DNA of 64,000 bases. It comes from Warburgia ugandensis. Lineage: Eukaryota > Streptophyta > Magnoliopsida > Canellales > Canellaceae. Below are positions 22,115 to 50,857 of this stretch, one piece after another. The stretch spans positions 43,155,880 through 43,219,879 of the forward strand of contig CP141132.1 of assembly GCA_035236585.1 (NCBI GenBank), given 5' to 3'. Below the pieces are notes generated by a model. That model was not told the origin of the DNA. It ran no database searches and saw only the letters and a program-made list of their open reading frames with translations. The first letter of the stretch is position 1. Each line of letters opens with the position of its first letter. The translations under genes were made by a program, and so were the position numbers.

Positions 22115-22194
22115 CTAATAACTGGGGATTAAAGCAAAACGATATCCGTTTGCACCCCTCCATGAATAATACGCAACTCGAGTTTCATAGAAAC
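22115..22194 (-). CDS. TMEM230: TMEM230 exon 2 (C-terminal 25 residues and stop)
   Basis: This 80-base exon is too short to stand out as an open frame; it was found by searching for the missing family C-terminus. It completes Gly88 (G|GT) and encodes [19 protein letters not shown] followed by ALIPSY and TAG. The acceptor is GGTGCAG|GTTTC on the minus strand, with a CTGAC branch-point-like motif about 25 bases upstream. Phase matches exon 1 exactly. The FYETR and YYSWRGA motifs are the typical plant TMEM230 ending, so chance is very unlikely. Confidence 0.93.
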
Positions 22195-25100
22195 CTGCAC
22201 CAAGAGCACATGCGTCAGTCTTCATATCAATAAATTCAGGAACTCTGATGATTTTTATCAGGAAGCATGAATTATGCTCAAAACTATAGAATACAATGAC
22301 CCATCTGGCGGAACACTACAAACCTAACAGAGCATTTCAATTTACAGTTCACTAAGCTTTCAAACACTACAAACCTAGCACTCGATAAGATATCCCGCTT
22401 CATTGTTGAACTCTATGACTGTATTAAAATGCAAATTTTGCAGCATTACAGACATTGCATTGGTAGAAAAAGAATACTCGCCAGATCGATTCCTCCAATT
22501 TAACTATCACGATAATATCTGATAAAAAAACTCTTATTCATTGGCAACAAACGCTACATTAAATCTGATAAATAATTTCCCCCTTCTAGTTTTGAGCAAC
22601 ATATTGGATAAGCATATGATTTTTCGCTAGGGAGGTGTTAGAAAATTATTGTAATATGTTTCTGCAGGACTTTTGGCTAAGATCAAGAGTAGACTATATA
22701 CACATTCGGTAAGTGGCCAAATAGGCATATACAAGGAAGAGATTCAGGCTAGATTTTGGTACATATGGAGTATGGTTTCCCATTATTGCTTTATAGCTTT
22801 CTCCACTTCCTCTCCTCTTACTTTGCATAAACACATACGTTTGCTGGTTGCGTCAGAACAAAGTTAGACCTAGCCATGTTTCTTTTCCAATTTACCACCT
22901 GTTACTTCAGTTTCTCCTTTTCCCTTCTGTTCTACATTCTGTGCAAGCTATACTATTGAAAGATGCACGCCAGATGTTCATTGCTCATGTCCCCTTAAAA
23001 ACAGACTTTTAGCATAACTGTAAGCCATCCATCTCCTCCCAGCTTACGATCCTTACATTCTCTCGCTTCTTTCATTCTTTCCAGTTTCTATTTTCCAAAG
23101 CATAGAGTCGTGTCCTCTCTTTTTCTTCATTTTCTATGTTCTGGTATTCTTTTTCACTCTCTAGATCTTCATACCCCATCCAGTCCTACCTAATTTTCAT
23201 TCATCTCTTTTCGAAACAAAAAACTCAGTTCTTACTCTTACTGTCAATGCATCCAACACAACCCTGCCACATCCAGGATTTTTTCATTGGTATATCCATA
23301 CAACACAACCCTGCCATTTCCATGATTTTCCTATACTTGTCACTGGTGACCTACATTAATCCCTTCACCTGTAACATCTCTTTTATTTGAACGCTACTTC
23401 TCAAAGATCCTTTCACTTCTACCAACAGACTCAATTTCTATATTTTACCAATCCTTTCGCGACTTACTTGATTTCTGGACATCCCCTTTCACTCTTAAGA
23501 CCTCTACTGAATTTTAGTTCTCTCTTCCACTTTGGTTTCCGCTTGATATCCGATTTTAATTGCAGTTTTACACTGTCAGTCCTTTCACTTTTACCAACAT
23601 ACTTATTTCTATATTTTACCCAACCTTTTACATCTCCTTAAATTCTGGACATCCCTTTTTACTCTTCAGCCCTCTACCTAATTTTACTTCTCTTCAACTT
23701 TGGTTTCCTCTTGATACCTGATTTGAACTCCATTTTGACACTGTCAGTCTTTTGTAATGTAAAAATTTATGCATTGCTGTCAATCCAGCTTCTTTTACTA
23801 TCACTGTCTCCTCTTTTCTAATCTCAACAAATGTGCATTTTCGGCTTCTTATACTATCAGTTGTGTCACTCCTGACTATGTTATTGGTTGATACAGCTAC
23901 AACATACAAGGTAAATACCAGAAAAATAAACAAATAAGTAACAGAATTGACAGGTCAGCAACAGAGTTTGTTAAGAAGATAAAGCTTTACACATGGCAGG
24001 TCCTGATTCACTTACCAGAAATCAGTTAGTTAGATGGTTACAAAGGAGACTTTAATAAAAGAAGGAAAGAAAAGGACGGAAGAGAAGAAATTGGAAAGTT
24101 ACTGGAGGCAGCAGCTCCTCAAATGGCTGCAGATTTTTCTTGTTTTCCTCTGTTTTCTTAAGCTTTCTCTGTGCAAGCTGTAAAAGTTGTAATCTTTTAG
24201 AGAGAATCTGCCATTTATATCCTAGATCAATTTGTTTTTGTTGAATTACTCTTCTTTCTTTAAAGGACTGCATCAATTTGGTATCAGAGCCTTACCTCCC
24301 GGGCATAGTCAATACACAAATGCAAGGAAGACTGAAAGCACTAGAGCAGAAATTTAAACATGTGTCAACAGATGTTCAATTGAGAGATTACTTGCTTGAG
24401 AAGTGGGAAATGATGAAGCATAGAGAAGCTAAAGGATTGAAACAGAAACAGAGCCCAGATCCTTCCGAGCAAACGCCGATGGGTGGGATCACAAGCACAG
24501 GTCCTTTCAATAGCTTGAAAGGAGAAATCCAACCTGGGTGCAAACGCTGTTAGGCTGGAATCCAAAGGTTGGAAACTAGAATTACCCATTTTCAAAGGGG
24601 AAGATCCCTACGGATGGGTGTTCAAAATGGACTGGTATCTACAAGCAACTGGTGTATAGGGAGGAGAGAAATTGCTCTGCAGTAGTTTGCCTGTAGAGGA
24701 GTGCCCTAGTGTGATATCAGTGGGTTGAAACATGGGCACCGATCAATAACTGGTCTGATTTCTAAATCCCGATGATCCAACACTTCAAGCCATCTTAGCA
24801 AGGTAAGTCTTACGAATCGTTGATGGATCTCCATCAACAAGGATCAGTGACAAAATATCGAGAGAAGTTTGAGATGATCACCACGTCCATGGTCAGAGCT
24901 TTCACAGAGTTGTTGCTACGAGCTTTCATTCACAGATTATAGGAAGAGATTAGGGCAAAACTGCAGTTTAAACAGTCTAGCAACCCTAACAACGACAATG
25001 GAACAGGCGCACAAGATAGAGGAAAGAAATTGGGTTTTAAATGGGGCCGAAGAAATTATGGCAAAAGGATAGTGGGCCAGACCACCCTCCCTACCCAATG

Positions 25101-28100
25101 GATCTCACTTATTTCCAGGCATCCACCAATGACATACCCAGAAACCCAACACCCAACGGCCCACTAAAATCGTGAGAACCCTACTGTGAGCAGGGATGAG
25201 GACTGCCAATTACCCAACAGACAAGGAAATGAAAACTGATTTCCCAACGGTTGGAAAGAGGGATTTCGGAGTCAGGAGATTAACGGAGGAGAATACAATT
25301 CAAACGGAAAATGGGTTTGTGTTCCACATGTGACGAAAAGTTCAATCCCAGTCATCGTTGCTGAAATCAAACTCTGCAAGTCTTCATGGTGTCCACCGAA
25401 GAGGACGAGAAGACCGAACCTAACCCAGATGGCAAACAAACAGTGGATCCGACATCTGCAAGTAACCTGTAGAACTTTTCCTCAGTTCTTTACTAGGTAT
25501 TATTTCGACCAAAGCCATGAAACTGAAGGGATTAGTGGGTACTCAAGACGTTTGATTTTGATCGATTCAGGGGTGATTCATAAATTCCTATCCAACAATT
25601 TAATAGTGGAGTTACAGTTGACAGTCACCCCTATCAGATCTTTCACTGTTCAGGCAGAGGACGGCCATGTGATTCACAGTCAAGGAGTTTGTAAGAATAT
25701 CACTCTCGATTTTCAAGGGATCACCATTATGTAGAAATTTTTCCCTTTGGATCTAGCCAAAGCAGATGTGATTTTGGGCATTGCATGGTTAGAATCCCTC
25801 AGTGATGTATGGTCCAATTGGAAGCAGCTAACTATGAAATTCAAGTATGAAGGCAAGCAGGTCTGCCTGCAAGGGGATTGATCCTTAGTACAAACCGTGA
25901 TCTCACTTAAACATATGATGAAATCTCAGCAATCAACCAACAATGCATGTTATTTCGAATTGTCTATCGTCGGTGATGATCACTAAACCACCGGACTGCT
26001 AGTTGCTCCAGAGATTAAATTGGTGTTACACAAATTTTCTGGCCTCTTTGATGTTCCCATTGAATTACCACCTCCACGACTACAAGATCACACTCATTTT
26101 GGAGGGAACCCAACCCCCCAACATTTGGCCATACAAATATCCTTTTTACCACAAATCTGAGATCAAGAAGATTATCAAGGAATTGCTGGTAGCAGGGGTC
26201 ATACAACCAAGTGTCAGTTCTACTTGTCAAGAAAGGAGATGGGAGCCAGAGGATGTGCATGGATTACCGAGCACTTAATCAGTCTATGGTAGTTGATAAA
26301 TTTCTAGTTCTGGCCATTGATGAATTGTTGGATGAACTCGGGTGCTACAATTTTTTCAACCTGAACCTGAAATAGGGATATCACCAAATCAGAGTTAGAC
26401 AACAAGATACACATATGACAGCTTTCCAAACACATGAACGACATTACAAATTCAAGGTAATGCCATTTGGGTTAACCAATACTCCAACTTTTCAAGCACT
26501 TATGAAAACTATCTTCCTCGCTCATTTAAGAAAATTTATTATGGTATTCTTTGATGATATATAAGTATATTCATCGGATCTAACCACTCATGTGAAGCAT
26601 TTGGAAGTCACTCTTCAGATTTTGGGTGACAACCAGTTGGCGTAGAACCAAAACAAATGTTCGATAGCCCTAACTAGTTTATTTAGGTCATCTTATCTCT
26701 TCTAAAGGTGTAGCTGGAGATCCCTCTACGATTGCATATATCATATGATGGCCCATTCCTTGTACTATCAAGGACTTGCAAGGCTTTCTAGAGTCAACAG
26801 GATATTACTGCAGGTTTGTGAAAGGCCATAGTATAATTACTAACCCCCACACTCAAGTACTCAAAAAGGACAGTTTTCAGTGGAATGATCAAGCCACAAA
26901 AGCATTTGAAACTCTAAAAACAGCCATGACTATGGTTCCTGTTCTAGCCATGCTTGATCTTACAAAAACATTTGTTATCAAAACTAATGCATCTAGCACA
27001 GGTCTTGGCACAGTTCTAAGGCAGGAAGGCCAACCAATAGCATATCTCAGTGAAGGACAATCAGCACGAGCACGACTCAAGTTGGTATACAAAAGAGAAC
27101 TTATGCCAATTGTATTCTCTGGACAAAAATAAAGGCACGACCTAAAGGGAGGTCATTTTATCATTTGGATGGATCAAAAGACCTTAAAATTCCTAATGGA
27201 ACAACTGTTTTGGAGGAAACCCAGCAGAAATGGGTGATGAAGTTGATAGGATATGATTTTGAAATACAATATAAATCAGGTAACGCTAACCGAGTGGCTA
27301 ATGCCCTATCCAGAACACCCCAATCTTCTCTGTTCCTAAGCATATCCATTTACAATTTTGTAGGATGGGAGGAGTTAGAACAAGAAGTGCGGCAGGATTC
27401 AACATTGTGCACCATTATTCAGGACTTGATAATTGATTCCAGTAGCCATCACAGATACCAGCTGTAGCATGGCTACCTAACTTATAAAGGTCGACTGGTA
27501 TTGCCTAAGAATTCTAATCGGATTCCCCTATTCTAACATGAATTTTACTCCATTCCTAGTGGGGGTCACTCAGGCTTTTACATGACTTACAAAAGGATTT
27601 TCAGGGTACTGTTTTGGGAAGGTTTACCAAGGGACGTCAAAGCATTTGTAGTAGCTTGTACAATATGTCAGAAAAACAAATACACCACTTTGTCACAGCA
27701 GGATTATTGCAACCATTGACGATTTCCCAATATCTTTGGGAGGATATATCAATGGATTTCATTGGTGGGCTCCCTAAGGCACATGGTTTTCTATACTAGC
27801 TTAGTGGTGGTTGATAGGCTCACCAAATTTTCACACTTCTTCCACTATATCACCCTTTCTCAGCCAAGGAAGTAGCTGTGATCTTCATAAAAGAGATTGT
27901 ACGTCTCCATGGGCTTCCGCATTCACTTGTTTCCGATCGTGACAAGGTTTTCATCAGCCATTTTTGGGCTAAACTATTCAAGCAAGCTGGAACTATCTTA
28001 AAAATGAGTTCTGCCTATCATCCTCAAATGGATGGACAGACATAGGTCATAAACAGGTGTCTGGACAAAGTGGAAGTTTGAGAGGAGGTTGGGGGGAAGG

Positions 28101-31100
28101 GTGGTGTTGTTGTTTGATACAGCTACAACATACAAGGTATATGCCAAAAAAAGATATGAATAAGTAACAGAATTGACAGGTTAGCAACAGAGCACATGGA
28201 GAAGATAATGCTTTACACATGACAGGTCAGCAACAGAACACATGAGGTTGGGGTGGGGGGGGCCGGGGTTGTTGGGGGAGGGGGAGGGTGGTGTTGTTGT
28301 TTGATACAGCTACAACATACAAGGTATATGCCAGAAAAAGATACGAATAAGTAACAGAATTGACAGGTCAGCAACAGAGGACACGAAGAAGATAACGCTT
28401 TACACATGGCAGGTCCTGATTCACTTACCAGAAATACTATTATAGAGGAGACTTTAAAAAATACAAGGAAAGAGAAGGAAGAGGTCAAAGAATAAATTGG
28501 AAAGTGACTGAAGGCAGCAGCTCCTCAAATGGCTGCAGATTTTTCTTCTTTTCCTCTGTTTTCTTAAGCTTTCTCTATGCAAGCTGTAACAGTTGTAATC
28601 TTTTAGAGAAAGAATCTGCCATTCAGATCCTAGATCAATTTGTTTTTGTTGAATTCCTCCTTTCTTTAAGAATTGCATCATTGGTCTTTTAGTTTGTCTC
28701 CCTTCTCTTTCTACTTCTAGCAGTTCATTTTTTTATCTTTACTTAAATTTACATGAATGTGTTTTCTTTCTTTCTTTCACTATTTGCTTCATCTTTTATT
28801 GTTATCTGATCAATCTTCTTCCCAAATTAAGATAGCAAATAACCATTTTACTCAAAGACACATCCTTACCCTCCCTAAATATTTCTATTCCACTATAGAC
28901 CCTTTGTAATCTGCCCCTTTCCCGAACCCCTCATATAGGGGAGCTTCGTGCACCGAGCTACCCTTTTCTCTTCTTTTTTTTATAGACGAATTCTCTGAGA
29001 AGGTGGACTTCATAAGCTCTTATGGTAGAACATCTACAGCAAAGCTAGTGAAAAGGTTCCAGACTGCAAATCTAAACTCCACCCTTACAAAGTTCTATCC
29101 AGATATTTCTTCAACAAATACTTAATGGAAGACATTGGAAGAATTCTCACTATTTCTAACGAAAATGTCGTCCCTAGTGGTCTGACCCATCTCATTCACA
29201 AATGTCCTAGACTAGACCCAAAGCCAACGCAGGACATTCAAAGAAGGCCCGGCCCCTTCTAGGAAGCAAAGAGCCAAGCTATACATTTTGACCTAGATCG
29301 ACTCATGGCCACGTCTGTAAAGGCAACCTTGCTTAGATCTCTAGATTGTACAATAGGTTTAGAACACTACATCAACCCAATACCACCTAGAATTCAAGCA
29401 CCCACTAGGCGAAGGGGGCCACCGTCATCCACACCAAGTGGGCTGGTATTCAATGTACATTATTGTATCAATAAGAATGCATTAGATGGATGCCCAGGCA
29501 TAGCTCAATGAGAGTTAGTCAAGAGCAAGGAATTCAATCTTGTCCCTTTTGTTGGTAAGCAAGAAAGCTTTTCTTGTTCTCATCAGCACTCCCTTTGGCA
29601 GCATCTACTAATTTAGAACTTAATTTGAAAGTCATATTTCAACTGGATGTTTTCAAGATGCTTAGATCTTATCACAAGTCTGGATACAAAGAATCTCAGT
29701 CCTTTCCAAAACTCCTAATTGGATTCCCCCTTACTCCATAGGGCCCATCCACTCTAATTCATGACTCAGTCAAATCACTCATGTCGGAAGTGCTACTATT
29801 TCTTCCATGTTTGGTCCCTTGTTCCTAATATCAACATTGTTCACAGATCGCAAGACAGACTCCATTCTACTTCTTCATATCATAGTCTCTTCATGCTAAA
29901 GATTAAGTGCTTGAAACTAGACAGCAATAGTAGTTTGGATATGGCAAGTAATTTGCGCTTTGATCTGGGCAGAAATCTATTGCTGAAACATGCTAAAGCA
30001 CTACTCTTGTCAAGCTTAATGTTTATGTGTCATTTCTTCCAAAACTCAAGCAACAACTACATTAATTTCTTCTCCCGTAAAGATTTTCATAGGTATAGAG
30101 GCACTTCCAGGAAAAGGACAGTGTTTACCATTGACGTGTGAATAGCAGTCACTGTCACGTGAATAGTAAGGAAAACAGTAATTGGGGAATGGATTATCAT
30201 GAAATGGCTTTAGCCTGTCATGAAATATTCTTGTGCAACCTTAAAGAACACATCTTTACCCAACTACATCTTTTTACCCTATTATATATCTCTATTACTA
30301 AGAAGGATTATAATAGTATTTGGTTTATCTTTTTCTTAATATCTTATCACATACTTTAATTGGGGCAACCTAGTTATGACTACTTCTATCATATACATTT
30401 TCTCCTATTATTATTAGACATGTCTATCTTCACTTATATTAAATCTTATCAACCATTTTAGTTTTTATTTTTGTATTCCTAGTGGCTTATGATATTTCGC
30501 AGCAAGCACAATTGGTTTTGACAACTATCATTGTCTTTCTCACCTGAATTGCTTTCCACATCAACAAGAAGATCAAGACATGGATGGCAATGTACAATGT
30601 TGATCCCAATTCTTCTAACCTTCTCATTCTCTATCATTTTATAATACTTTCACTTATCTTTTACTCCAATTATTAGTATACATATTTTCTAGGTTACTAT
30701 TAAAGTGGAGCCAAGAGAGAAAGATAGAGAGACCCTTAGAATGGGTGAATGTGTGTTAATTGTTCTGCACCTCACACTTAACTCATATATATATTATACA
30801 TACCCCTAACTGTACAATGTGGGACTAAAAATAAAACAAAAATAAGACTAAGGCTAGGTAAAGCTATACAATACAATGCTATATTCAACACTCTCCCTCA
30901 AGCTGGAGCATATAAGCCATATGCACCAAGGTTGTTACAAATGTGTTTAATTCGAGGCCTTCTGAGAGATTTCGTGAAGATGTCTGCTAATGGATCATTT
31001 GAATTGACGAAGCTAGTAGCAATACATCCTGACAAGATCTTTTCTCTAGTGAAATAACAATCCACTTCTATGTGTTTAGTCCTTTCATGGAAAACGGGAT

Positions 31101-34100
31101 CAGATGCAATATGTAAGGCTGCTTGATTATCACATATTAGCTTTATACTTCCATCCTCTCCGAGTTTTCATCTCTTGGAGTAGTTGTTTCAGCCAAATAA
31201 GTTCATATATTGCCAGAGTCATGGCTCGTTACTCAGCTTCTACACTTGATCTGGCAACTACATCTTATTTCTTGCTTTTTCAAGATACTAAGTTACCTCC
31301 AACAAAAACACAATATCCTGAGGTAGAACACCTGTCTGAAGGAGAACCAGCCCAATCAGCATATGTGTATCCAACAATTTGAGCATGGCCTTTATCTTCA
31401 TATAACATACCTTGACTTGGTGCTGCTTTATTTTATCGAAGAATGCAAACCACTGCATCCCAATGACTATCACACAGTGACTATAGTAATTGACTAATTA
31501 CACTTACAGCAAAAGAGATATCTAATCGAGTAATGGTGAGATAATTTAGTTTACCCACAAAACTCTAATATCTTCCAGAGTCTACTAGAGGCTCCCCCTA
31601 GGTACAAGCTTAACATTCGGATCCACGAGGGTGTCCACGGGCTTACAATCTAACATACCAGTCTCTTCCAAGAAGTCTAAAGTATACTTTCTCTATGAAA
31701 TGGTAATACCTGAACTAGACTGAGCCACCTCAATTCCCAAAAAATACTTAAGTTTTCCCAGGTCTTTAGTCTAAAAGTGATGGAAGAGATGTTGTTTAAG
31801 TCTCTGAATGCCAACATGATCACTGCCTGTGATGACAACGTCATCCACATAGACCACTAGAAGATACACTGACCCGAAGAGTTGTGCCTGCCCATTGAAA
31901 AGAGAAAATACTGATTAGTGTCAGGAAAATAACAATCATACCCCTTCTAAAGCCTAGAATATCCCAAGAAGATGCATTTTGTGGCCTTTGCGGAAAGCTT
32001 ATCTTGCCCAGGTGCAAGGTTGTGTACAAAACAAGTACATCCAAAAACACAAGGAAGAAGATAAAGAGGTTGTGTGGGGAAGAGAATGGAATGGGGAATC
32101 TAATCATGCAACAAAGAGGAAGGCATACGATTAATTAAATAGCAAGCAGTGAGAATAGCATCCCCCCAAAAATGACAAGGAACATGACTGTGAAGAAGTA
32201 AAGTGCGAGCTGTCTCTATAAGATGAAGATTTTTGCGTTCAGCTACTCCATTTTGTTGAGGAGTGTGAGCACACGATAAGAATTCCTTGTTGAGACATAA
32301 AGGAAGAAAAAGGTATAGAAGAATATTCTCGTGCATTGTCACTCCGTAAAACACGGATAGCAGCATTAAATTGAGTTTGAATTTTAGCACAATTTTTGAA
32401 AATTTGAGAATAATTTAAGTCGATTCTTCACAAGGAATAACCAAGTACATCAAGAATAATCATTAATAAAAGTTACAAAATACTGAAAACCAAAAGTAGA
32501 AATAGTACAACTAGGACCCCAAACATTAGTGTGGACAAGTTCAAAGGGGAACAGCCTAATTATTGAGATGCTTTAGAAACGAAACACGAGTATGTTTTCC
32601 AAGTTGACAAGACTCACACATAAGAGACGACAGTAGAAAAATTAAGAACCATCTTTTGAAGTTTGGAGAGACTAGGATGGCCCAAACAATTGTGAATAAG
32701 AGCAGGAGAAGCAGTGAAGATGCAAGTGGCAGGAGCTACAAGTTATGTGAGATGGTAAAGGCCTTCAAACTCACGCCCTATATTTATCATCTTCCCCGTA
32801 CCCTAGTCCTGAAAGATTACAAATTTATCAAAAAAAGTGCGAGAGCAATTAAGAGTGCAGGTCATTTCACTGATGGAAATAAGATTAAACGAGCACTCAG
32901 GAACATAAAGCAAAGAGGTGAGAGAAAGAGTAGGAAGGGGATGAGTCAAACCAATGCCTTTACCTACAGTTTTGAAATAGTTGGCTAGAGTGATAGTAGG
33001 TAAAGTAAAAGAACTAGTAAGAGAGGAGAAAAGGTGTTTGTTACCAGATATGTGATCAGAAGCTCTAGAGTCTAGAATCCACGGGCTAATAGAAGAAGAC
33101 TGAGTAAAGCAAACAATGGGATTACCAATCTGAGAGACAGAGGCAACGGAAGATGACTTGCTGCCTGATATTGGAGGTACGCATCATAGTCACTACCAAT
33201 CAGGGTAATACTCTGAGATGTGGAACCCTCAGATGAGTTAGGTAACTAGGTGTTAAATGATTATGCGATGTTGGCAGAGCGAGGAGGTACCCCATGCAGT
33301 TGATGACACCGATCCCATGTGTCCAATCTTATTACAGTATGTGCACTAAGGATGCTGTCCTCGATTATAACCACCACCACGATTGCCTCGAGTATTTGCT
33401 TGAGAGGCCAAAACTGAGGAATCTGAAGGGCCATTAAAAGTAACTGTTTGAGTAGAGGAGATACACAACAAGCAGGTAAATACTTCATCCAATGAGGACA
33501 CCAAAGGGCTTGTAAGAATTTGATCTCTGACGGATTCACAGTCAGGGCAGAGCCCAATGAGAGTCAACAACATCAAAACTTATTGATGAGTTTGTTGGGC
33601 TTCTGTACTATTAGTACGAGGCATCAGAGACAAGAACTCCTCCTTAAGGGACGCAATCTTTCCGATGTAAGTCAAAAGATCCATGTCCTGCTGTCTAACA
33701 TAAACAATGTCAAAAACAACTTTGTGAAAACCTTGAATATCATTCATGTATAATCCCTTGGCCTGGGTCCAAAATTTGAAACATGTTTTATAGGTGCGAA
33801 GATGATGTAAAATTTTGTGGTCAACGAATCACCATAATAGGCTGCATTAATTGTGGATCAATCTTTTTCCATTGCAATTTGTCTACAGCAGGAATATTCT
33901 TCATCTTTCTTGACCAAATGGTCTTTATAACCTTGACCCATAAACCATAATTCCACAGAGGCAGACCAAGACAGATAATTTTTACTACCAATTAATATCT
34001 CCAACGTAATAACAAGAGATCTAGAAATTACAAAGTGAAAATATCATTTTTGGAAGCCATGATTACTTATCTGAAGGCTGATACATTTAGATCGAAGGGA

Positions 34101-36293
34101 GCTCAAGAAGGTGAGTGGTTAGCAACTGTCCAAGACAAAAGGTGTGTGGCGGTGCGGTGATGGTCACTGATGGCACAGACAAAGATGGCGGCAATTTCTG
34201 GGTGGTCCATGGCGAAGATTTGTGCCGGAGGAGGCCGGACATGCTCCACGCGTTGGCGCATGGGTGACTAGCAGCGGCTAGGGCAACATGTGATGACACA
34301 TGGGATATGTAGATCGGCACCCTCTAGCTCAGAATATGGGGTGACCTGATGTAAAAGAAGTTGCCAAAAAAGTCACCGGCGACGACAACAATCTGGAGAC
34401 GGTAACATCAATCGGGGAACGCCAAAGACGACGGAGGGGTGACCAGTAAAGAAGCACGGTTACCAAAGGTATCGCCGAAATAGATACACAGCCAAACCAA
34501 AAAAAGGAAAAAAAGAGAAGGTAGAAAATTAGGGTCTCTTACAACTTTGATACCATGTTAAAGTGGAGCCAAGATAGAGAGATAGAGAGACACCCTTAGA
34601 ATGGGTAAATGTGTGTTAGTTGTTTTGCACCTCACACTTAATTCATATATATACTAAACAGGGATAGTTACATGCTCCTAACTGTACAATGTAGTACTAA
34701 AAATAAAACAAAACTAAGGCTAAGACTAAGCTATACAATACAATGCTATATTCAATAGTTACCTATATCATCACAAAGGGTAACCCAAAGGGCAGCCTCT
34801 AGGCAATCTCTCTCTAATTTAACTTACCTCAAAACTTATTTCTCATGTATTCATTACTTTGCCACTTGTTGCACACGAGTGACAAAGAGAGGCAAATGTA
34901 AATGCCTAATTCTTATTTTTGAGATATTTTTCTAAGTAAATAATATGAAGAATTGAAACAATAACACCCAAATTACTTGTCTATTATTTCCTCATTTAAA
35001 GCAACATGCAATCAATTAATTCAAAAGGTATTTTCATTCATAGTGAAAATTCCAACTCATCTCTCTCTCTCTCTCTCTCTTAACCTAGACTTTACCTCCT
35101 CTATTCTCCTTCTTACATTCTCTTGACTTTTTCTTCAGCACAAGTTTAAACATCCCCTCTTGTCTTCACTATCTTCAAATATAACAAAAGCTTCCTTTCA
35201 CCTACACCTTACATCGACGAAGGCTTTCTAGTTCTCACACTACATCGGGGCAACATCAATGCCATCCATCTACTCCACCTTCACACATAAGGCTTTTCAC
35301 AACCAGCCTAATTTTTTATTGGGAAGATCCTCTTAACTCTTTTATTGTTTCATATTAGTCTTTTGTTCATGTCTATTTTGTTCAATCTTGACTTAAATCC
35401 CTTTTATTTATTTGTTAGTTGTTTATTGTGTAGCTTTTATGTTTGGTTTATCATTAGGTTTTCATGTTTAATCCATTGATCTTTTTAATCAAGTCATCTA
35501 TTATAAAACAATTGCAAATTACATGATCTTGATTCATCCTTAAGGCACTTGGCTGTATCCCATATTTCCATTTCCCTAAACTTCCAACTAAATAATACAA
35601 TTTTATCATATTTATTTATTTTCTTCATTGTTTTCATCAGTTTTAGCAAAATCCAAACCAAGTTTTAGCCATTTTAGAACTTAACGACACAATAAATCGT
35701 TATATGTTTAGTAGAATAGGATAGCAAGATAACACCCCTCCTTATCATTTCCTCAAAGCCATTACATCAAAGACTTAAAAAAAGGCATGTTCTAGTTCCT
35801 TAAGCCCAATGCACCAGCTAGGACCTTATAAATATCCAAAACTTAGATCTATATTTGCTCTAAGGAAGATGCACAAGAAACCCAATATTTCATACTCATG
35901 GAATATGAACAAAACAAACAGATGCATTTTCATTTTGATACTATAGTCAATGAAATATGAATAAATAACTAACTGACAGAAACGAAAGAAAAAATATGAT
36001 AAAGGGAAACACAAAGTTTAGTTTTACATACCTGGAAGAAAGGAGAGGATACCAAGGACCAAGAGACCCCATGCCTGGGACCGATCACCTCCCATATGGC
36101 CAATGAAAATGAAAAAAGAGAGGGAAAGAAGCAGTGATCCTAGAACAAGGAGGAAAAGGGCAAGACAAATGGACTTCCATGGGACCTTGTCAAAGGACTT
36201 AGGTAAGTAGGCAAACCGATGGTCATCCCCACCATCACCATCCCTCTCATCTGTAGGAAGAGGGGCATAACGAACTTGCCGTCTCATTGCCAT
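22115..36293 (-). CDS. TMEM230: TMEM230-family transmembrane protein, two exons joined across a ~13.8 kb intron
   Basis: Joining 36293-36032 to 22194-22115 on the minus strand gives an uninterrupted 113-residue protein. Residues 1-40 are a polar cytosolic N-terminus with the plant-type start [14 protein letters not shown] and the stretch [13 protein letters not shown]. Residues 42-65 form one hydrophobic membrane segment, 66-73 the hallmark loop HMGGDRSQ, and 74-90 a second membrane segment ending FLPGFYETR. The tail is [13 protein letters not shown] and ends at TAG. Plant homologues are about 110-120 residues, so the protein looks complete. The family (animal TMEM230) is linked to vesicle trafficking in the secretory and endosomal system; a role here is by homology only. 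The start MAMRR was chosen because homologues begin M-A-x-R-R; an in-frame Met 16 codons upstream has no family support. The intron holds one antisense gypsy and one sense copia element. It is the only open, family-matching host gene I find. Confidence 0.93.
23889..24275 (+). repeat. Gypsy 5' LTR
   Basis: TG...CA ends, directly followed after three bases by the TGGTATCAGAGC primer site; preceded by TSD TTGGT. Confidence 0.94.
24278..25100 (+). pseudogene. Gypsy gag (broken)
   Basis: An N-terminal helical stretch (24278-24553) is followed by the gag core [19 protein letters not shown] near 24602-24657, then stops (for example directly after that block). Confidence 0.8.
25330..25880 (+). pseudogene. 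Gypsy aspartic protease (broken)
   Basis: [15 protein letters not shown] (near 25557-25601) holds the D-S-G active site with the following A-T changed to [15 protein letters not shown] (near 25766) matches the second conserved block. A stop lies between them at 25732. Confidence 0.88.
26000..26790 (+). pseudogene. Gypsy reverse transcriptase (broken)
   Basis: [19 protein letters not shown] opens the domain; MDYRALNQS, a mutated LDLKSGYHQIRV block, MPFGLTN and the catalytic F-F-D-D-I box (near 26551) follow. At least two frameshifts and several stops. Confidence 0.9.
26790..27310 (+). pseudogene. Gypsy RNase H (broken)
   Basis: [20 protein letters not shown] (catalytic D replaced by N in the D-A-S block), then [11 protein letters not shown] with a stop at 27130, and [11 protein letters not shown] at the domain end. 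Confidence 0.88.
27400..28080 (+). pseudogene. Gypsy integrase, C-terminus deleted
   Basis: The zinc-binding region ([13 protein letters not shown]) and core ([36 protein letters not shown]) are present in shifting frames. After VINRC the sequence jumps to LDKVEV, which resembles the usual end of this polyprotein, then the polypurine tract. Confidence 0.87.
28084..28301 (+). repeat. Duplicated polypurine tract and partial LTR start
   Basis: The G-rich polypurine tract plus TGATACAGCTACAACATACA occurs twice: at 28084-28243 (130 bases of LTR, starting 28114) and again at 28245-28301 leading into the true 3' LTR. Offset is 188 bases. Confidence 0.9.
28302..28680 (+). repeat. Gypsy 3' LTR
   Basis: TGATACAGC to TTGCATCA; followed by TSD TTGGT. 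Confidence 0.94.
30698..30890 (-). repeat. Copia 3' LTR
   Basis: On the minus strand TGTTGAATATAGC to ACTTTAATA; the terminal CA has become TA. Confidence 0.93.
30900..31490 (-). pseudogene. Copia RNase H (broken)
   Basis: [20 protein letters not shown] (near 31360-31300) is the RNase H core block; [14 protein letters not shown] is the usual end. Several stops. Confidence 0.9.
31490..31880 (-). pseudogene. Copia reverse transcriptase, C-terminal half only
   Basis: The catalytic Y-V-D-D box is at 31851-31840 ([20 protein letters not shown]), then [18 protein letters not shown] and [12 protein letters not shown]. The preceding RT fingers are absent: sequence jumps from the integrase C-terminal region to just before YVDD. 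Confidence 0.92.
31880..32830 (-). pseudogene. Copia integrase (broken)
   Basis: [14 protein letters not shown] (near 32620) belongs to the HHCC region. [13 protein letters not shown] (near 32260) and [18 protein letters not shown] (near 32170-32115) are core blocks. The C-terminal part [16 protein letters not shown] follows after a frame change. Confidence 0.93.
32900..33240 (-). pseudogene. Copia protease (broken, DSG changed to DSR)
   Basis: [20 protein letters not shown] near 33085-33030 is the protease block; the catalytic D-S-G reads D-S-R. Confidence 0.85.
33240..34060 (-). pseudogene. Copia gag (broken)
   Basis: Starts MASKNDIF near 34060. [39 protein letters not shown] and a zinc knuckle CTYC...GHMG (near 33330) in alternating frames match copia Gag. 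Stops and frame shifts throughout. Confidence 0.86.
34556..34757 (-). repeat. Copia 5' LTR
   Basis: On the minus strand TATTGAATATAGC to CCACTTTAACA, next to the primer site; the first TG has become TA. Confidence 0.93.
36032..36293 (-). CDS. TMEM230: TMEM230 exon 1 (start codon to first base of Gly88)
   Basis: This exon encodes residues 1-87 plus the first base of Gly88. It holds the N-terminus, membrane segment 1, the GGDRS loop and most of membrane segment 2. The donor reads CTTCCAG|GTATGT on the minus strand, a strong GT donor in phase 1. Without splicing the frame reads a Met and stops within a few bases, so the exon cannot be a complete gene alone. The frame is open upstream of the chosen Met, so the exon may carry 5' untranslated sequence. 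An acceptor-like stretch about 55-60 bases upstream (TTATTTGTACTTGAAG) would allow an earlier non-coding exon. Confidence 0.93.
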
Positions 36294-37920
36294 TCTAATC
36301 CAGCCAAATACTATACTCCGAAATATCCAATTGAAAGACACATGGAACCTTCAAGTACAAATAAAATTTAGCCACCTTTTAATTTCGGATGAATTAAAAA
36401 ATGAACCAAAATCATGAACAAAAGAAACTAGAAACTAGGAGGATAACAATGCCAAAAAGCATCAAGAATCAACGAAATGCCACAAAATCCATTGTTGGAA
36501 TGAATGAAGACACAAACAAACAAGTCCAAATAATAATAATTACCTAAAAGCAAACAATTGATACAATAGTAAGGAAAACACCAAAGATGCATGTCCTTAA
36601 ACAATCTCAATTCCCAAAATTATAAACATGAATAGCAAATTGCTAGGGCAATGCCCAGGAATACAAGTCTTGATAAAGGAAATGGAACACAAGGCAACAT
36701 ATTTAGAATGCCAATTGGCATCAAATTTTGAATTAAGAAGAGACCATAATAAATGTGTGATGAATTGGGGCTCGACCATTTGAAGAAAGAAAAGCCATGT
36801 AGCTTAAAAAGAAAGGGTGTACAAAGCACCATTAAATGGCCCACTCACTCAACTAATGAAATAGTATATAGTATAAATAACTAAAAGGTTAGAAAACGAA
36901 CATATGGTGAAAGAAAAAGAAAAAAAAAAATTCTAGGAACGAAGTTGTAAAGTCTAAGAGAATGAAGGATCTAAAGGAGGAAAAGTTAGGTATTCTTGTA
37001 TAATTATGCCACTAAAAGAGTGACAATAAATGAAGAAAAATCTTAATAAGAGAAGTACTTACTCAAGGACAACAAACACGTTCTAGGACCCACGTGTTGT
37101 AATGATCTAGCCCATTAATCTAGTAGGTGATCAGAAGCCCATCTCATTGGTGCTAATTTTGCCTTTATTGGACATTCCTAAACCCTTAATCTAAAAAGTT
37201 GTGTTCAAGATTTTTCTAAGAAAATGTGAACCATTGATTTTTGGTGTACAATAGTTTGCCAATGATAAGTCCATTTGACTTGAGACAAAGGGCATATAGG
37301 TTTGCTTTTGATGTTGGACAAGTTTTATCAATAGGCAGACCTCTTATGTAGAACCACGAAATGCCTCTGCCTTAGATGGAAAAAGTGTCATAGTTGGCAA
37401 TCCCACTAATATTGAAGTAAGTAGAAGAATGAGAGTGGTTAGTTAAATTAAGAAGAGGAATGGTAGAGTATTGCACTATAGGACAGAAATGTAATACACC
37501 CCAACTTTAGCTTGGTGTCAACCAATGGAGTTACCCAGATGTTAAAATGAAAGCATATTATACTAACTTATATTTTGTAGTTCATTACTCTACCATTTCT
37601 TGTATTAAATTTAAGTAATCATTCTCATTCTCCATCTTTCCTTCAATATGAGTGGGATCACCAAATATTGCACTTTTTCCATCAACAGGAGAAAGGCACT
37701 CCGTGGGTCCACATGGAAAGTCAACCTCCTAAAAAACTTGTGCATCATCAAAAGCAAGCCTATTTGACTTTCACTCCATGCCAAATGGAAATTTCACTAA
37801 CAAATTATAGTACACCAAAAATCAATGATTTGCATTTTCTTGGAAAAACCCTACACAAGGCTTTTTAGATCAAGGGTATGGCACTTTCCAATCAAGTCAA
37901 TATTTACACCAATGGGGTGG
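36294..37920. other. No gene seen upstream of TMEM230 exon 1
   Basis: AT-rich, with many short frames and no family match. It may hold the TMEM230 5' UTR or be part of a 5' UTR intron. Confidence 0.5.
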
Positions 37921-37990
37921 GCTTCTCATCATCCATCATATTAGTGGATTCAACCGCTTCTCATCATCCATCATATTAGTGGATTCAACC
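37921..37990. repeat. Perfect 35-bp tandem duplication
   Basis: The unit starting GCTTCTCATCATCCATCATA occurs twice head to tail without a difference, so it is recent. Confidence 0.97.
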
Positions 37991-43577: not shown

Positions 43578-45975
43578 ATCATCACCATCATCAAGACCTT
43601 ATCCCAATTAAGGGTCGGCCACATGAATCTTATTCCTCCATTCTACTCTATTAAATATCATGGTTTCATTTAGTCCTAAAGCTTTTAAATCTTTCCGCAC
43701 CACTTCTATCCAAGTTCTTTTAGGCCTTCCCCTTGCCCTTTTAGAACCTTCTACTTGTATTGCCTCACTCCTAACTGGTGTCGTTGTTGATCTCCTTTGA
43801 ACATGTCCAAACCATCTAAGTTTAATCTCCCTCATCTTATTACCTATTGGTGCTGCCCCTAAATTTCCCCCAATATTTTCATTTCTAATTCTATCATTTC
43901 TTGTCTTACCACTCATCCATCTCAACATCCTCATTTTTGCGACGCTCATCCTATGAGTATGATGTTCCTTAACTGCCCAACACTCTGATCCATCTGGCCT
44001 TATAGCCATCCTATAGAATTTTCCCTTTAGTTTGAGTGGCACCCGCCTATCACATAAAACACCCAATGCACGTCTCCATTTGTTCCAACCCGCTTGGATT
44101 CTCTGAGTAACCTCCCTCTCAATCTCTCCACTCTCATGGATCAATGATCCTAAGTATCAAAAGTGGTCTTTCACGGGGACCTCTTGGTTATCAATCTTGA
44201 CTGATGTTCCACTCCTCTCCTTGCTAAAATTATATTCCATATATTCTGTCTTAGTTCGGCTAATTTTAAATCCTTCAGATTCTAATGCTTCTCTCTATAA
44301 CTCTAGCTTTATGTTTACACCCTCCCTTGTCTCATCAAATAGGACTATATCGTCTACAAATAGCATGCACCATGGAATCTCCTCATGCAAATGTTTTGTT
44401 AACTCATCCATAACTAATGTGAAAAGGTATGGACTCAATGCCGATCCTTGGTGCAAGCCGACAATGACAGAAAAATCACCAGTCACGCCACTAGTGGTCT
44501 TAACATTTGTTACCGCTCCCTCATACATATCTTCAATTATGTCTATATACCCCTGAGAAAACCCTTTACCAGCCAACACCCTCCATATTAACTCTCTAGA
44601 GACTATCATAAGCTTTCTCTAAGTCGATAAAGACCATGTGGAGGTTTTTTCTCCTATCCCTATATTTCTCTAATAATTGTCTTAGTAAGAAAATAGCTTC
44701 CATGGTAGACCTCCCAGACATGAAACCAAACTGATTCTCCAATACACTTGTTTCATGCCGTAGCCTCTTCTCAATCACTCTTCCAAAAAGTTTCATGGTG
44801 TGGTTCATAAGTTTGATCCCTCGATAATTAGTGTAGCTCTGAATGTCTCCTTTATTCTTATAGATTGGTACAATAGAGCTTTTCCTCCACTCATCAGGCA
44901 TTTTCTTTGATTTTATAATCTTGTTAAACAACTTGGTCAACCAAATTACCCCAATATCTCCTATATGCTTCCAAGCCTCTATTGGTATACCATCAGGCCC
45001 CATGGCCTTTCCTGATTTCATCTTTCTCAAGGCCTCTTTTACTTCAGGTATTCTAATCCTACGTTCATATCTATAATATCCAATGTTATTTAGATTTACA
45101 GTAATTTCAATCCCTATATTCTCAGGGCCATTGTCATTTAACAATTTTTGAAAGTATATTTCCCACCTTTGTTTGATCTCATCATCTTTGACTAATACCC
45201 TTTGATCATTGCTTCTAATACACCTAACATGCTCTAAGTCCTTACCCTTCTGCTCTTTTACTTTTGCAAGTTTAAACACATCTTTCTCACCTTCTCTTAT
45301 TCCTAGTCTATTATAGAGCTCGTCATATGCTTTAAGTTTAGCCTCACTTACTATTCTCTTAGCAACGTTTTTAGCATTCTTATATTGTTCATAGTTTTCA
45401 TTATTTCTAATCTTTTGCCATACTTTAAAACGCACTCGTTTTTCTTTAATAGCTTTTTGCACTGTTTCATTCTACCACCATGTTTCCTTTGTTAATAGCC
45501 TTTTACCTTTAGATACTCCTAAGACATCTTTTGCCACTTTCTTAATGGACTCAACCATATTAGTCCACATGGTATTTACTTCTGTTTCATAGTTCCACTT
45601 TCCTTCTACCATCAACTTATTTTTAAATAAGGTTATTTTCTCTCCTTTTAAGTTCCACCACTTAGTTTTTGGATGTGTATTAAGTTCAATTCTTTTACTC
45701 CATCTTTTGATATGAATATTCATAACCATTAACCTATGTTGTGAGGTTAAACTCTCACCGGGTATCACCTTACAATCCTTACATATAGATCGTTCATTAT
45801 TCCTAAGTAGAAAAAAGTCTATTTGGCTTTTATGAAGTCCACTTTTAAAGGTTATTAAGTGTTCATCCCTCTTCTTAAAGAGTGTATTTGCAATGGATTG
45901 GTTATATGACAAAGCAAAATCAAGGATATTCTCCCCCATCACGTTTCGTTCACCTATACCATACCCCAATGATAT
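43578..45975 (-). pseudogene. RTE-type LINE: endonuclease C-terminus, reverse transcriptase, 3' tail
   Basis: On the minus strand the single RTE protein can be followed from GYGIGERN (45965) to the ATGATG-type tail at 43578. The endonuclease end reads HLITFKSGLHKSQIDFFLLR and GESLTSQHRLMV. RT blocks are GKAMGPDGIPIEAWKHIG, QFGFMSGRSTMEAIF, FIDLEKAYDS, GLHQGSALSPYLF and the catalytic F-V-D-D (44360-44349). The C-terminus is LRWFGHVQRR and RPKRTWIEVVRKDL. Lesions: TGG to TAG near 45472, a frameshift near 44600, stops near 44295 and 44160, and loss of a few residues in IRP..GSECWAV. The first half of the endonuclease is absent. Confidence 0.94.
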
Positions 45976-45984
45976 AAAGAACAC

Positions 45985-48650
45985 TGAAATCGAAATTCGG
46001 ATAAATTTCGCCCCAAAATTTTACTATTCCATGATCAAGTTATGAGTTTTCAAGAAATATATCTTTAATAGGATAATAATTTGGAACTAAAACTAAAACC
46101 ATTAGATAGTACTCAGAAAATAAAATCCAACAAGCTAAAGAATGTTGAAAACAGAGTCTGTATGAAGAAGTTATGGGACTTTGAAGTTAGGGGCAATACA
46201 ATAATTAAAAGATAAAAAAAAAAAACTCAACGGAGGGGTCCAAATTGATATTGGCACCCCCCCTCACATTGGAAACCCGACGTAATGTCGGGTCTGGTTC
46301 TTTCCAAAACCCGACACCGACAACCCCAAACCCCAGAGCTCCCTTATTTTCGGCAATCACCGGAAGGGCATCCAAACAAGGCCAGCCCTTGGGCAGGCTA
46401 GTATGCCGAGCCCTCGTCGGGTTTTTCATTCCCAGCAAAGCCCCAGTAGTTTTCCCTCTGCTTCTCTTCCTCGAGCAAATCCTTAGTGGATCTATGCTTT
46501 TCCAACGACAGAAGAATACCCAGATCGGGTTCCCGGGCTCTCTTTCCTTCTGGTTTTTCGATGACCAAGAAGAAAACCCAGATCGAGTTTCTAGGTCAAG
46601 CCAAGTTTTCCTTATCCAATTTTTTTGGCGACCAACAAGAAACCCAGATCGGGTTTCTCTGTCAGCCTACATGCTAGATCCACCTAGAAAACCCCATTTC
46701 CCCTCTATTCTCCGATGGATTTGTACCAGACAGTGACTAGAAGTCACCAAATCTCTAGCAAACCCATTTTTTGACATGCTTAGGTTGCACCGGCCACTCG
46801 GGCTTTCCCGTTTTCCTTGTCTTCCCCAGGAGCCAGCATGGCCAGGCTTTCAGGCTAGCCAATGTACTCTATTCCCCCTGACCAGATCGGGTGGTGGCCA
46901 GGAATTGGAAGCCACCCAACCACCACCATCCCTGCCAATCCCCTGCATTTTCCTATTACTAGCACGACCCAATTTTCAAGCGTGCTTGTGTTTTCTGATG
47001 GCTAGGATCGGACATTGCTAGTCCGCCCACCGGTCACCATCCGCCCCTATTTTCCCTGTTGTTTCATAGTCGCCAAAGTTGGTCGCCTCCGACTCGGTTG
47101 GACGGGACCCAGTTTAATCCTTGACCTTCAAACCTGGATTTTGAGCAATCCAGGAGTTTTGAAAATTCGAGAGACCCTCGCGATCCTTAGGATGCGAGGA
47201 ACAAAACCCATCTTCCCAATTTTTGATCTGGGAAGATCTGACCGTTGAAATTGCCAGACCTTTCATCAGGGGTCAGATCGCCTGATCTATGACAATCTGA
47301 CTTCGTTTTTCCAATCCAAATAGTCTATCATGACCATTAGGAAGTGTAGATCAAGAATCTGATGAGAGATTTAGGATCAAAAGCTTGATTAGAGAAGATT
47401 TCATTGATCTTAATCAATGGTCGAGATCAATCTAGGATCTAGGTATGGAAATTGATCAAGTTCTATGATCGTGATCAATGTAGCCTATTCAATTAGATTG
47501 TTTAGTTAGAAGTTACTAATTAATTGTTTGATTTGGAGGGTCCAAGTAAAAATGAGGATTTTACCACCATGAATGGATGGCAATCAATGCTAGTGGAATT
47601 GAAGAACGCATCACACTAGGTGAAAATTTAAGACAGCATGTCTAAATAATAAGATGCATGTTCTAAACATGATCTTCTGATTATAAATGTTATGAAACTC
47701 AAATGGTATTATTGATATTCGACATGCTTTAAATTGTAATGATGAAAATAATGTTATAATTGATACTTATAACTTGTACATCATGTATGTGAATTGTGAA
47801 ATTATGTTTATGGTACATAGGTACCACGTCAATATTGATGATGAATAAGTCTAGGTTTATAGGATACATCCTTGGTGGATTATCACCAAATAAGTGAGGA
47901 TGTTATTCTTATTATGAAATATATGAACAGGCAAATCACCTTTTATTATGATTACTTTACATCTGAACATGGAGGCCTGAGAGTTTTGTTTTATACAGGC
48001 GTATGCATAGGGATGCTATACTAAAAGAGTTATGAGGGTTTGGCCACCCGCTCTCCAAAATGTGATATATGATGATACCATGCCCAAAGAGAGGAAAAAG
48101 GTAGGGTGGGGCAATTATGGGAAGGCCACCACTGTAACGATTTGTCTCCCCATTTAGACATGACATAGATGATTTTCCACATTTGGTATCCATGGAGTAT
48201 GAAAGCAGTTATCCGGGCGCACTATATGGATCAGACTGCATGCATAGTAGTCCTTATATTTGATGCACTATAGTGCTTATATGATGGCATTATGAAATGC
48301 CTCATATGATGTGGCATGATGATATGCCTTATATTGTTTTTCCAGCAATGGATGGAGGATTTTAGACCCCGTACAATGAGGGGCATGAGGATTATATTGA
48401 TATACCAGCAGAGGCTGGATGATTATGAACCTCACATGATGAGAGGTATGATTCTGAAACCCAATATAGTCTAGGAATGTAAATTAGATTATGTTGATTA
48501 TATTCATAATTTTGTATGACTTTTAACAATTTTCATATATGTGTATGTATGCTATATGTATATGATGGAGGGCATAGTTTCATATAAGTTTCATATAGGT
48601 ATATGAATGGGTACAACTGTTATGCAGGAAATCTAAGGCTAAAATCAACG
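45985..48650 (+). mobile_element. Truncated Tekay/Del-like LTR, copy C
   Basis: It starts at AACACTGAAATCG directly beside the truncated LINE 5' end and shares the layout of copies B, D and E: an AT-rich start, GGCACCCCCCCTCAC (46253), a GC-rich middle (46.25-47.25 kb), a GATC-rich part (47.25-47.5 kb). Around 47965-48130 it contains the inverted match of copy A. Its 3' end, hairpin and primer site are missing. GC-rich open frames here have no family match. Confidence 0.72.
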
Positions 48651-50297
48651 AGTTAAGAGATGAATCAATGACCAATGTTGATTACACCTAGGGCTATCCT
48701 AAGCTCCCTTAAATTGGTCCATTTTTCAATGGGAAATAACTTGCTAAATTGAAGATTTTTAGGTAAAATTGGAGAGAGAAAAGGACGGAGAGAAAGGGCA
48801 AATGAACTTATACTTCTCAAATGCGATTTTGTGAGAAATTTTAGGATTTGAAGAGGCATTCAAGGAAGATACTCATAGGTAGACCAATGGGAATGCGTGA
48901 AACGAGGAAGTTGTTTAAGCTAGAGAGGCCTAAGAAAAAGACTTTTCTAATGGGAGGAAACACACAAGTGCAAAATGTGTTGCTATTTGCAAGGGCAAGA
49001 ACTTCATTTAAGAAGGAATGAAAAACATGTTTTGGAGAGAATGAGGCTACATTTGATTTTTTTTAGGAGGCGTGATTCTCTTTTGGGGGAGATGTGTTTT
49101 AATTTTAAAAAGACGTCGTGCAACTTCAGGCAAAATGGATAGGACGGTTCAAAGAGTTTCACTTGGGAAGAACTTTATTCAAGAGTTTTAGATGCTTTTT
49201 TTTTTTAGCGGGTGCTATTCACCATTTCACGAGGAGACATCTTTTGGAGGGGAGTTCAAGTTGATACATGGTTTTAAGGAGTGGGGCAGCCCCAGTGCAC
49301 AAAGCTCTCGCCTATGCAGGGTCCGAGGAAGGGGTGGGCCACAATAGCCTCACTTCGAAAGGAGTAAGAGAGCAAAATGACTGGTTTTGGAAAAACTACG
49401 CCTCACTTGGAAAGGACGGTTTTCTGAGGAGGATATTTTCTTAGGAGACGCCTAAACATTCTTCTGGGAGGTGTTTTTTGGTTTTTAATTGTGAATCTTT
49501 TTTTCTTGTCTTTGGTGAGTGACACATCAAAGAATGAGAGCTATTTTCTTATCTTTGGTAAGGAGTAGAACCTAGAGTGCTTGGTACGTGACATATTGAC
49601 AAGAAGCTACTAGGCATCCATCTTCAATCTGGGAAAGTTTGATTTTACTTTTCTTTATTTTGATGGTTGGATCTTGAAGTTGTTCATCTTCAATCCGAAA
49701 AAAGTTCAATAAAGTTGTTTTTCTTTGGTTCATCTTGAAGATAGTTAATGTTTTGTTGCTCAGATTTAATGGTTGGATGCTATGGTTCTAGTGTTTTTTT
49801 CTATCTTTTAGATGTGAATTTATTTTCATGTTTTAGCACTAGTATTTTAGTTTTATCTTAACCTAGTTTAGGATTTATTTTGTTCTTAGTTTAGCCTAGG
49901 ATTAAGCAAAGTTTATAGCCATCCTAGGATGTTTTTTCACCAATCCTAGGCATAGCTAGAAAATGCGCTAGTCTAAGCTAAATTACGATGTATTTTACTA
50001 TAGTTTTTAGACATGTTTTCCTCTATAGTTTTAGGCTCATTTAGGATGTTTTATTTGCACTATTTTAGAATGGTATAAATAGACAATTTTTCTAGGATTT
50101 ACAACATGTTAGGCTAGATTTTATTTGACTAGGATAGTGTAATTCTAGCCTACTACTAAGTAACCCTACTAATAATTTTCTAATGATTTATAAGTCTAAA
50201 AATTAATATTAAAATTATTCTCAATTTGAAAAAGGTAAAATTGTCCTTAGCAAAATCTTTTGCTTCCATGTTATTATTTTTCATGATATTTCTTGGT
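48651..50297. other. No gene seen apart from a SINE fragment
   Basis: Unassigned DNA; the part 49.75-50.2 kb is rich in CCTAGG/TTTAGG motifs without a clear unit. Confidence 0.5.
49283..49350 (+). mobile_element. Au SINE 5' fragment
   Basis: GGGGCAGCCCCAGTGCACAA to GGGCCACAATAGCCT matches the first ~70 bases of the Au SINE; the 3' half is missing. Confidence 0.8.
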
Positions 50298-50354
50298 TTT
50301 AATCAATGCTCTATTATAGTTAGATTTTACATACGATTCTTAGGATATGACAAT

Positions 50355-50395
50355 AATCATCATCATCGAGACCTTATCCCAACCAGGGGGTCGGC
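50355..50395 (-). mobile_element. ~40-bp RTE LINE 3' tail, copy 1
   Basis: Minus-strand GGTTGGGATAAGGTCTCGAT plus ATGATGATG matches the 3' end of the LINE at 43.58 kb. Flanked by TAGGATATGACAAT and TAGGATTTGACAAT, a 14-bp target duplication with one change. Confidence 0.85.
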
Positions 50396-50633
50396 TAGGA
50401 TTTGACAATCTACCTAGTTTTTAATGTTTGATGATTTCTAGAATAAAAAAATTTCAAAGAAAACACCTTTTGAGAAAATAATCATAGTTTTGATTTAATT
50501 TTTGAGATACAAAAAACTAATAATAACTAGTGAGCCCTAATTTTAGCTTAGGTGATATCTAATCCGTGTTCTTAGATTTAATCAATGCTCTATTATAGTT
50601 AGATTTTACATACAATTCTTAGGATTTGACAAT

Positions 50634-50671
50634 CATCATCATCATCAAGACCTTCCCAATTAGGGGTCAAC
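50634..50671 (-). mobile_element. ~40-bp RTE LINE 3' tail, copy 2 (by duplication)
   Basis: Same tail, slightly shortened, flanked by TAGGATTTGACAAT on both sides (50620-50633, 50672-50685). Confidence 0.85.
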
Positions 50672-50857
50672 TAGGATTTGACAATGTACCTAGTTTTAAA
50701 TGTTTGATGATTCCAGAATAAAATTTTTTTAAAGAAAACACCTTTTGAGAAAATAATCATAGTTTTGATTTAATTCTTGAAATACAAAAATATAATAACA
50801 ACTAGTGGGCCCTAATTTTAGCCTAAGTGAAATCCAATCCATCTTTTCTAATTTAAT

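Follow-up and report, generated by a model that had tools for sequence, protein, structure and literature searches.

The window, i.e., the whole stretch of DNA analysed here, covers 64,000 nt (C7:43155880-43219879, with zero N) of the Warburgia ugandensis genome (1,122,538,268 bases in 14 contigs) and carries on its minus strand a gene whose two exons lie 13.8 kb apart. The coding part of exon 1 (36293-36032, 262 nt) starts at the ATG at 36293 and holds codons 1-87 plus the first base of codon 88, while exon 2 (22194-22115, 80 nt including the stop codon TAG) encodes 26 residues, with a glycine codon spanning the junction. The intron between them (22195-36031, minus strand, 13,837 bp, phase 1) runs from 36031, after the donor CCAG|GTATGT, to the acceptor GGTGCAG|GT at 22195, whose pyrimidine tract we judged by eye to be modest. 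Joined, the two exons encode a protein of 113 aa, and intron retention would stop the frame after 89 residues (FLPGM*), at the TAA at 36026-36024 just past the donor. These exon coordinates and the 113-residue product had been proposed in a sequence-only reading of the window, and both were correct.

The joined protein matches the Pfam family PF05915 (TMEM_230_134) at E 1.7e-23 and 83.4 bits (curated cut-off 26.8 bits) over profile positions 45-119 of 119, in agreement with the TMEM230 assignment made by the sequence-only reading. Taken separately, exon 1 with its read-through to the intronic stop (89 aa) reaches 42.7 bits at profile positions 45-95, and the 26-aa exon-2 peptide 30.6 bits at positions 94-119; exon 2 thus supplies the end of the domain that exon 1 lacks. 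Hydropathy analysis (Kyte-Doolittle, 19-residue windows above 1.6) yielded a single hydrophobic stretch, within residues 36-69, and no second one in this protein or in that of its paralog on contig C4 (see below). Human TMEM230 isoform 2 is described as having two transmembrane segments, and animal TMEM230 has been reported in association with vesicles and Rab-linked trafficking (PMC7426619); by analogy with the animal protein, the plant protein may have a role in membrane trafficking. The family comparison used the Pfam profile and copies from the same genome. A PDB sequence search with the protein gave no meaningful relative (two matches, best E 0.27), and a literature search on TMEM230 and plant gave no title on plant TMEM230 among the matches listed.

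Elsewhere in the window, Pfam analysis of 20 of the 94 ORFs of at least 66 aa outside the gene returned one domain, RVT_1 at 44596-45471 (minus strand, E 1.3e-11), which is adjoined by long frames (43608-46666) and probably belongs, as a guess, to a LINE-type element. An inverted repeat at 37112-37947 (215-nt arms, 76% complementary, 406 nt apart) lies ~0.8 kb upstream of exon 1 and, close to the promoter as it is, may represent a MITE or a foldback element, and a 275-bp unit is tandemly duplicated, with 88% matches, at 50290-50840.

Retroelements and older repeats in the intron

Two decayed LTR retrotransposons occupy most of the intron. The first, on the plus strand and hence antisense to the gene (23889-28680), is a Ty3/gypsy element, as indicated by its LTR pair (23889-24275 and 28302-28680; 387 and 379 bp, K2P 0.113 over 373 sites), TG..CA ends, a putative primer-binding site recognized by eye (TGGTATCAGAGC), a 5-bp target site duplication (TTGGT at 23884-23888 and 28681-28685), and RNase H and integrase domains. 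Four of its five coding pieces matched Pfam (protease, RNase H, integrase zinc-binding, and rve, the last below cut-off), and the piece at 26193-26372 had no Pfam match at 0.01. An extra, partial gypsy LTR start (28115-28228, plus strand) lies before the 3' LTR as a tandem duplication at 187-bp spacing; the duplication, seen at 28093-28415, includes the end of the gypsy internal region and the LTR start, reaches into the 3' LTR and shows 93% identity over 136 bp.

The second, a probable Ty1/copia element on the minus strand and thus in the sense of the gene (30698-34757), has its 5' LTR at 34556-34757 and its 3' LTR at 30698-30890 (202 and 193 bp, K2P 0.092 over 188 sites), with copies of the target duplication GTTAC at 34758-34762 and 30693-30697. 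Pfam recognized Pol_BBD in one of its five pieces and nothing in the other four, the domain order being read by eye only. Primer-binding-site-like sequences were seen by eye for the elements, and the coding pieces of both stand in separate, stop-broken frames. Both LTRs recur in the genome, with at least 43 matches for that of gypsy (its own included; best 40 of 131 candidates scored) and at least 40 for that of copia (itself included; best 40 of 752 candidates scored). A gypsy-type and a copia-type element, as claimed by the sequence-only reading, are both present, each with an LTR pair and a 5-bp target duplication. Counted with one target copy each, they make up 8,862 of the 13,837 bp (64%) of the intron, and both inserted more than 1.2 kb from either splice site.

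The remaining 4,975 bp (36%) consist in part of an older dispersed repeat that flanks the copia element. Upstream of copia, this repeat (34758-35607, minus strand) continues across the copia-free junction at related sites on contigs C5 and C11, and downstream of copia (30194-30692, minus strand) it was recognized from the genome search and the same copia-free sites. When the two copia flanks were joined, the repeat could be followed without a break across the insertion point at C5 (1,120 columns, 72%) and C11 (758 columns, 67%), where apparently a single copy of the target could be read. Because these copia-free relatives are unbroken, the copia element must have landed inside an older repeat, and the intron grew stepwise. 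The segment next to exon 2 (22197-23883), which includes a 168-bp tandem duplication (23408-23753), matched only itself in the genome search; the middle part of the intron contains several dispersed repeats with at least 42 matches (best 40 of 1,488 candidates scored), and the part next to exon 1 gave 30 genome matches, itself included. AATAAA occurs 13 times on the gene strand of the intron, against ~10 expected from base composition, including one instance within copia (31432) and none in the copia LTRs.

Relatives elsewhere in the genome

Searching the genome with the PF05915 profile gave 14 matches, seven of them above the cut-off, among which the window's own exon 2 counted only together with its neighbours in frame, while a search with the protein gave 11 (E values of up to 10). 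Besides exon 2 itself, the matches covering most of residues 88-113 were those on contigs C4, C2, and C13, and a fragment on C11.

The copy on C4 is a paralog whose exons measure 274 and 80 nt and whose 2,655-bp intron has the donor GTATGC; its protein is identical to that of the C7 gene at 73 of 109 aligned residues and scores 80.3 bits against PF05915. The site and phase of the intron are identical in the two genes, and the agreement of phase and splice sites noted by the sequence-only reading holds. The part of the C7 intron outside both elements had no clear similarity to the C4 intron (best E 0.006), so that the two introns are tied by position and phase only.

The C11 fragment (C11:20792644-20792912) is intronless and crosses the exon junction, though it is frameshifted and contains an in-frame TAG. 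Its identity is 85.5% to the spliced C4 coding sequence (332 columns) and 69.0% to that of C7 (229 columns), which suggests that a C4-like transcript was once spliced exactly at the homologous junction, an indirect indication for C7. At C11:20792480-20792930, the C4-type coding fragment follows a repeat that occurs in multiple copies and contains, as judged by eye, a copia-like primer-binding-site motif; 30 of the 43 matches found with the fragment cover only this leader of ~70-87 bp. The fragment has the appearance of a spliced host mRNA captured by a retroelement. A search of 10 kb around it, and of 10 kb around a related fragment on C10, revealed neither an LTR pair nor a complete capturing element. 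That C10 fragment (C10:55621472-55621989) is a sister of the C11 one (79% over query 180-753), having the same non-gene sequence downstream and most of exon 2 lost. The copies on C9 and C10 are exon-1 fragments, with only chance-level short matches to the remaining coding sequence within 10 kb around each.

A second branch of the family is represented by copies on C2 (C2:76611476) and C13 (C13:43070401), which look like a duplicate pair. In the C2 copy, a 95-bp intron lies at a different site, ~15-20 residues earlier than the C7/C4 intron, which follows ...FLPG, and the protein is 38% identical to that of C7, with GGDR and PGFY-TR-AYY stretches in common; the C13 copy was left out of this alignment.

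Comparison with C4 also bears on when the elements arrived. The LTR divergences (~0.09-0.11) amount to about one-tenth of the synonymous divergence between C7 and C4 (0.8-1.2), which places both insertions after the gene duplication irrespective of the absolute rate. In keeping with this order, the C4 intron is shorter than either element, and searches of the C4 stretch with pieces of both elements gave only matches of up to 39 bp (best E 4e-4). Assumed substitution rates of 7e-9 to 1.3e-8 give LTR ages of 3.5-8.1 My, and one of 1.5e-9 gives 31-38 My.

Between the C7 and C4 coding sequences, dN/dS was 0.218/1.094 = 0.20 (NG86), 0.258/0.785 = 0.33 (YN00), and 0.231/1.155 = 0.20 (LWL85). Differences at codon positions 1, 2, and 3 numbered 20, 18, and 55 over 109 codons and 3, 2, and 15 over the 26 codons of exon 2 (15 of 20 at the third position), with P values for the third-position excess of 3e-7 (whole coding sequence) and 1.7e-4 (exon 2). 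As averages over both branches, these selection figures are compatible with a loss of C7 after the insertions.

A probably intact gene across an expanded intron, and the alternatives

We consider it highly probable that the locus is a two-exon TMEM230/TMEM134-family gene, still intact, in which LTR-retrotransposon insertion has enlarged an old phase-1 intron to 13.8 kb; the splicing of this gene is predicted from the exons and their signals. The ancestral position of the intron, shared in site and phase with C4, and the transposable-element majority of its length mark it as a large TE-expanded intron. The statement of the sequence-only reading that the gene is probably intact was borne out by the C4 intron site, the C11 copy of the junction and the purifying selection between C7 and C4, exon 2 included. 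In this gene's history, gypsy landed antisense in the ancestral phase-1 intron and copia in sense, inside the older repeat; the whole unit would most likely be transcribed by Pol II, with read-through tolerant of heterochromatin, as for Arabidopsis intronic elements, and the spliceosome would excise the intron using the ancestral splice sites. The product would be the 113-aa protein, carrying a hydrophobic helix around residues 40-65 and, towards its C-terminus, a conserved stretch of 11 residues.

Alternatively, the insertions may have disabled the gene, such that transcripts end in the intron to give the 89-aa product or none, leaving exon 2 as a relic in decay. A retained intron does end the frame just past the donor, the sense copia LTR may end transcripts early by supplying a poly(A) site, as published for COPIA-R7 in RPP7, and the C9 and C10 copies look like exon-1-only fragments within the 10 kb around each. 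Against this, neither exon has lost its reading frame or its splice site, exon 2 shows a strong third-position excess, and the C7 protein fits PF05915 as well as that of C4 (83.4 vs 80.3 bits). Moreover, in a neutral-decay simulation using the LTR-derived distance and indel rates (5,000 runs per clock), whose outcome depends on the indel rate chosen, the C7 frame survived in 5.3% of runs on the gypsy clock and 7.7% on the copia clock, and in 37% and 48%, respectively, when only stops and start loss were scored, without indels. The simulation lends modest support to the gene having stayed under constraint after the insertions, and we regard its disablement as unlikely.

A further reading, to which we give only a slim chance, sees the sense-oriented copia element as a switch, whereby a heterochromatic intron would yield the 113-aa protein and otherwise intronic transcript ends would yield an 89-residue protein that lacks the conserved C-terminus. 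The parallel would be RPP7/COPIA-R7, with a host gene of the TMEM230 membrane-trafficking family instead.

It is barely credible that transcripts use a nearer last exon inside the intron, with 22194-22115 having no function as exon 2. For a plant, 13.8 kb is a long distance to an exon of 80 nt, and no other support for a nearer exon was found. Against it, six-frame translation of the window contains the 11-residue exon-2 motif, with up to four substitutions allowed, just once, in exon 2 itself, tblastn of the window at E up to 10 found no further exon-2-like place, and the genome matches over most of residues 88-113 lie, apart from its own, only on C4, C2, C13, and C11. The closer exon 2 that might have overturned the sequence-only reading was hence not found in the window. 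Equally far-fetched is an assembly artefact in which, e.g., two repeat-rich pieces were wrongly fused into a chimera. Although intronic repeats could mislead assembly, the window lacks N and lies inside an 82.8-Mb contig, each element has its own target duplication, which a mis-join would not produce, and no other copy of the segment adjacent to exon 2 was found in the genome.

As a probably intact gene with a large intron made mostly of transposable elements, the C7 locus is like the TE-filled introns of Arabidopsis, where RT-PCR confirmed six of the eight tested introns longer than 5 kb, including a 10,233-bp intron that is 96.6% copia-like (PMC5575664). Unlike those cases, its intron, the last one and within the coding region, combines an older repeat with two LTR elements, and its splicing is predicted from sequence. 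Grapevine offers a genome-wide survey, with 2,697 EST-mapped introns of 3-100 kb, transposable elements filling ~80% of the expanded space and gene splitting at large introns reported as an annotation error (PMC3058033), whereas ours is a single locus in another plant. As for how such introns are traversed, loss of heterochromatic marks at intronic elements, under IBM2/EDM2, is accompanied at the tested loci by early polyadenylation and by transcripts that lack the downstream exons (PMC4417168), and EDM2 suppresses polyadenylation at the COPIA-R7 5' LTR in RPP7 (PMC7529245). In common with RPP7/COPIA-R7, the C7 gene has a copia element in a host-gene intron and needs read-through for its downstream exon (PMC7529245, PMC4417168); unlike RPP7, it is not an immune receptor gene.

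TE-expanded plant introns and the annotation errors that result from them have already been published, and the C7 gene is a further instance that changes no concept; its short last exon is one that annotation could miss, and the truncated exon-1-only gene model that the sequence-only reading foresaw would be an error of the kind published for grapevine. Together, the nested insertion, the datable LTR pairs, the paralog with a shorter intron at the same site and the copia-free sites make the locus a clear illustration of how an intron can grow in a large plant genome.
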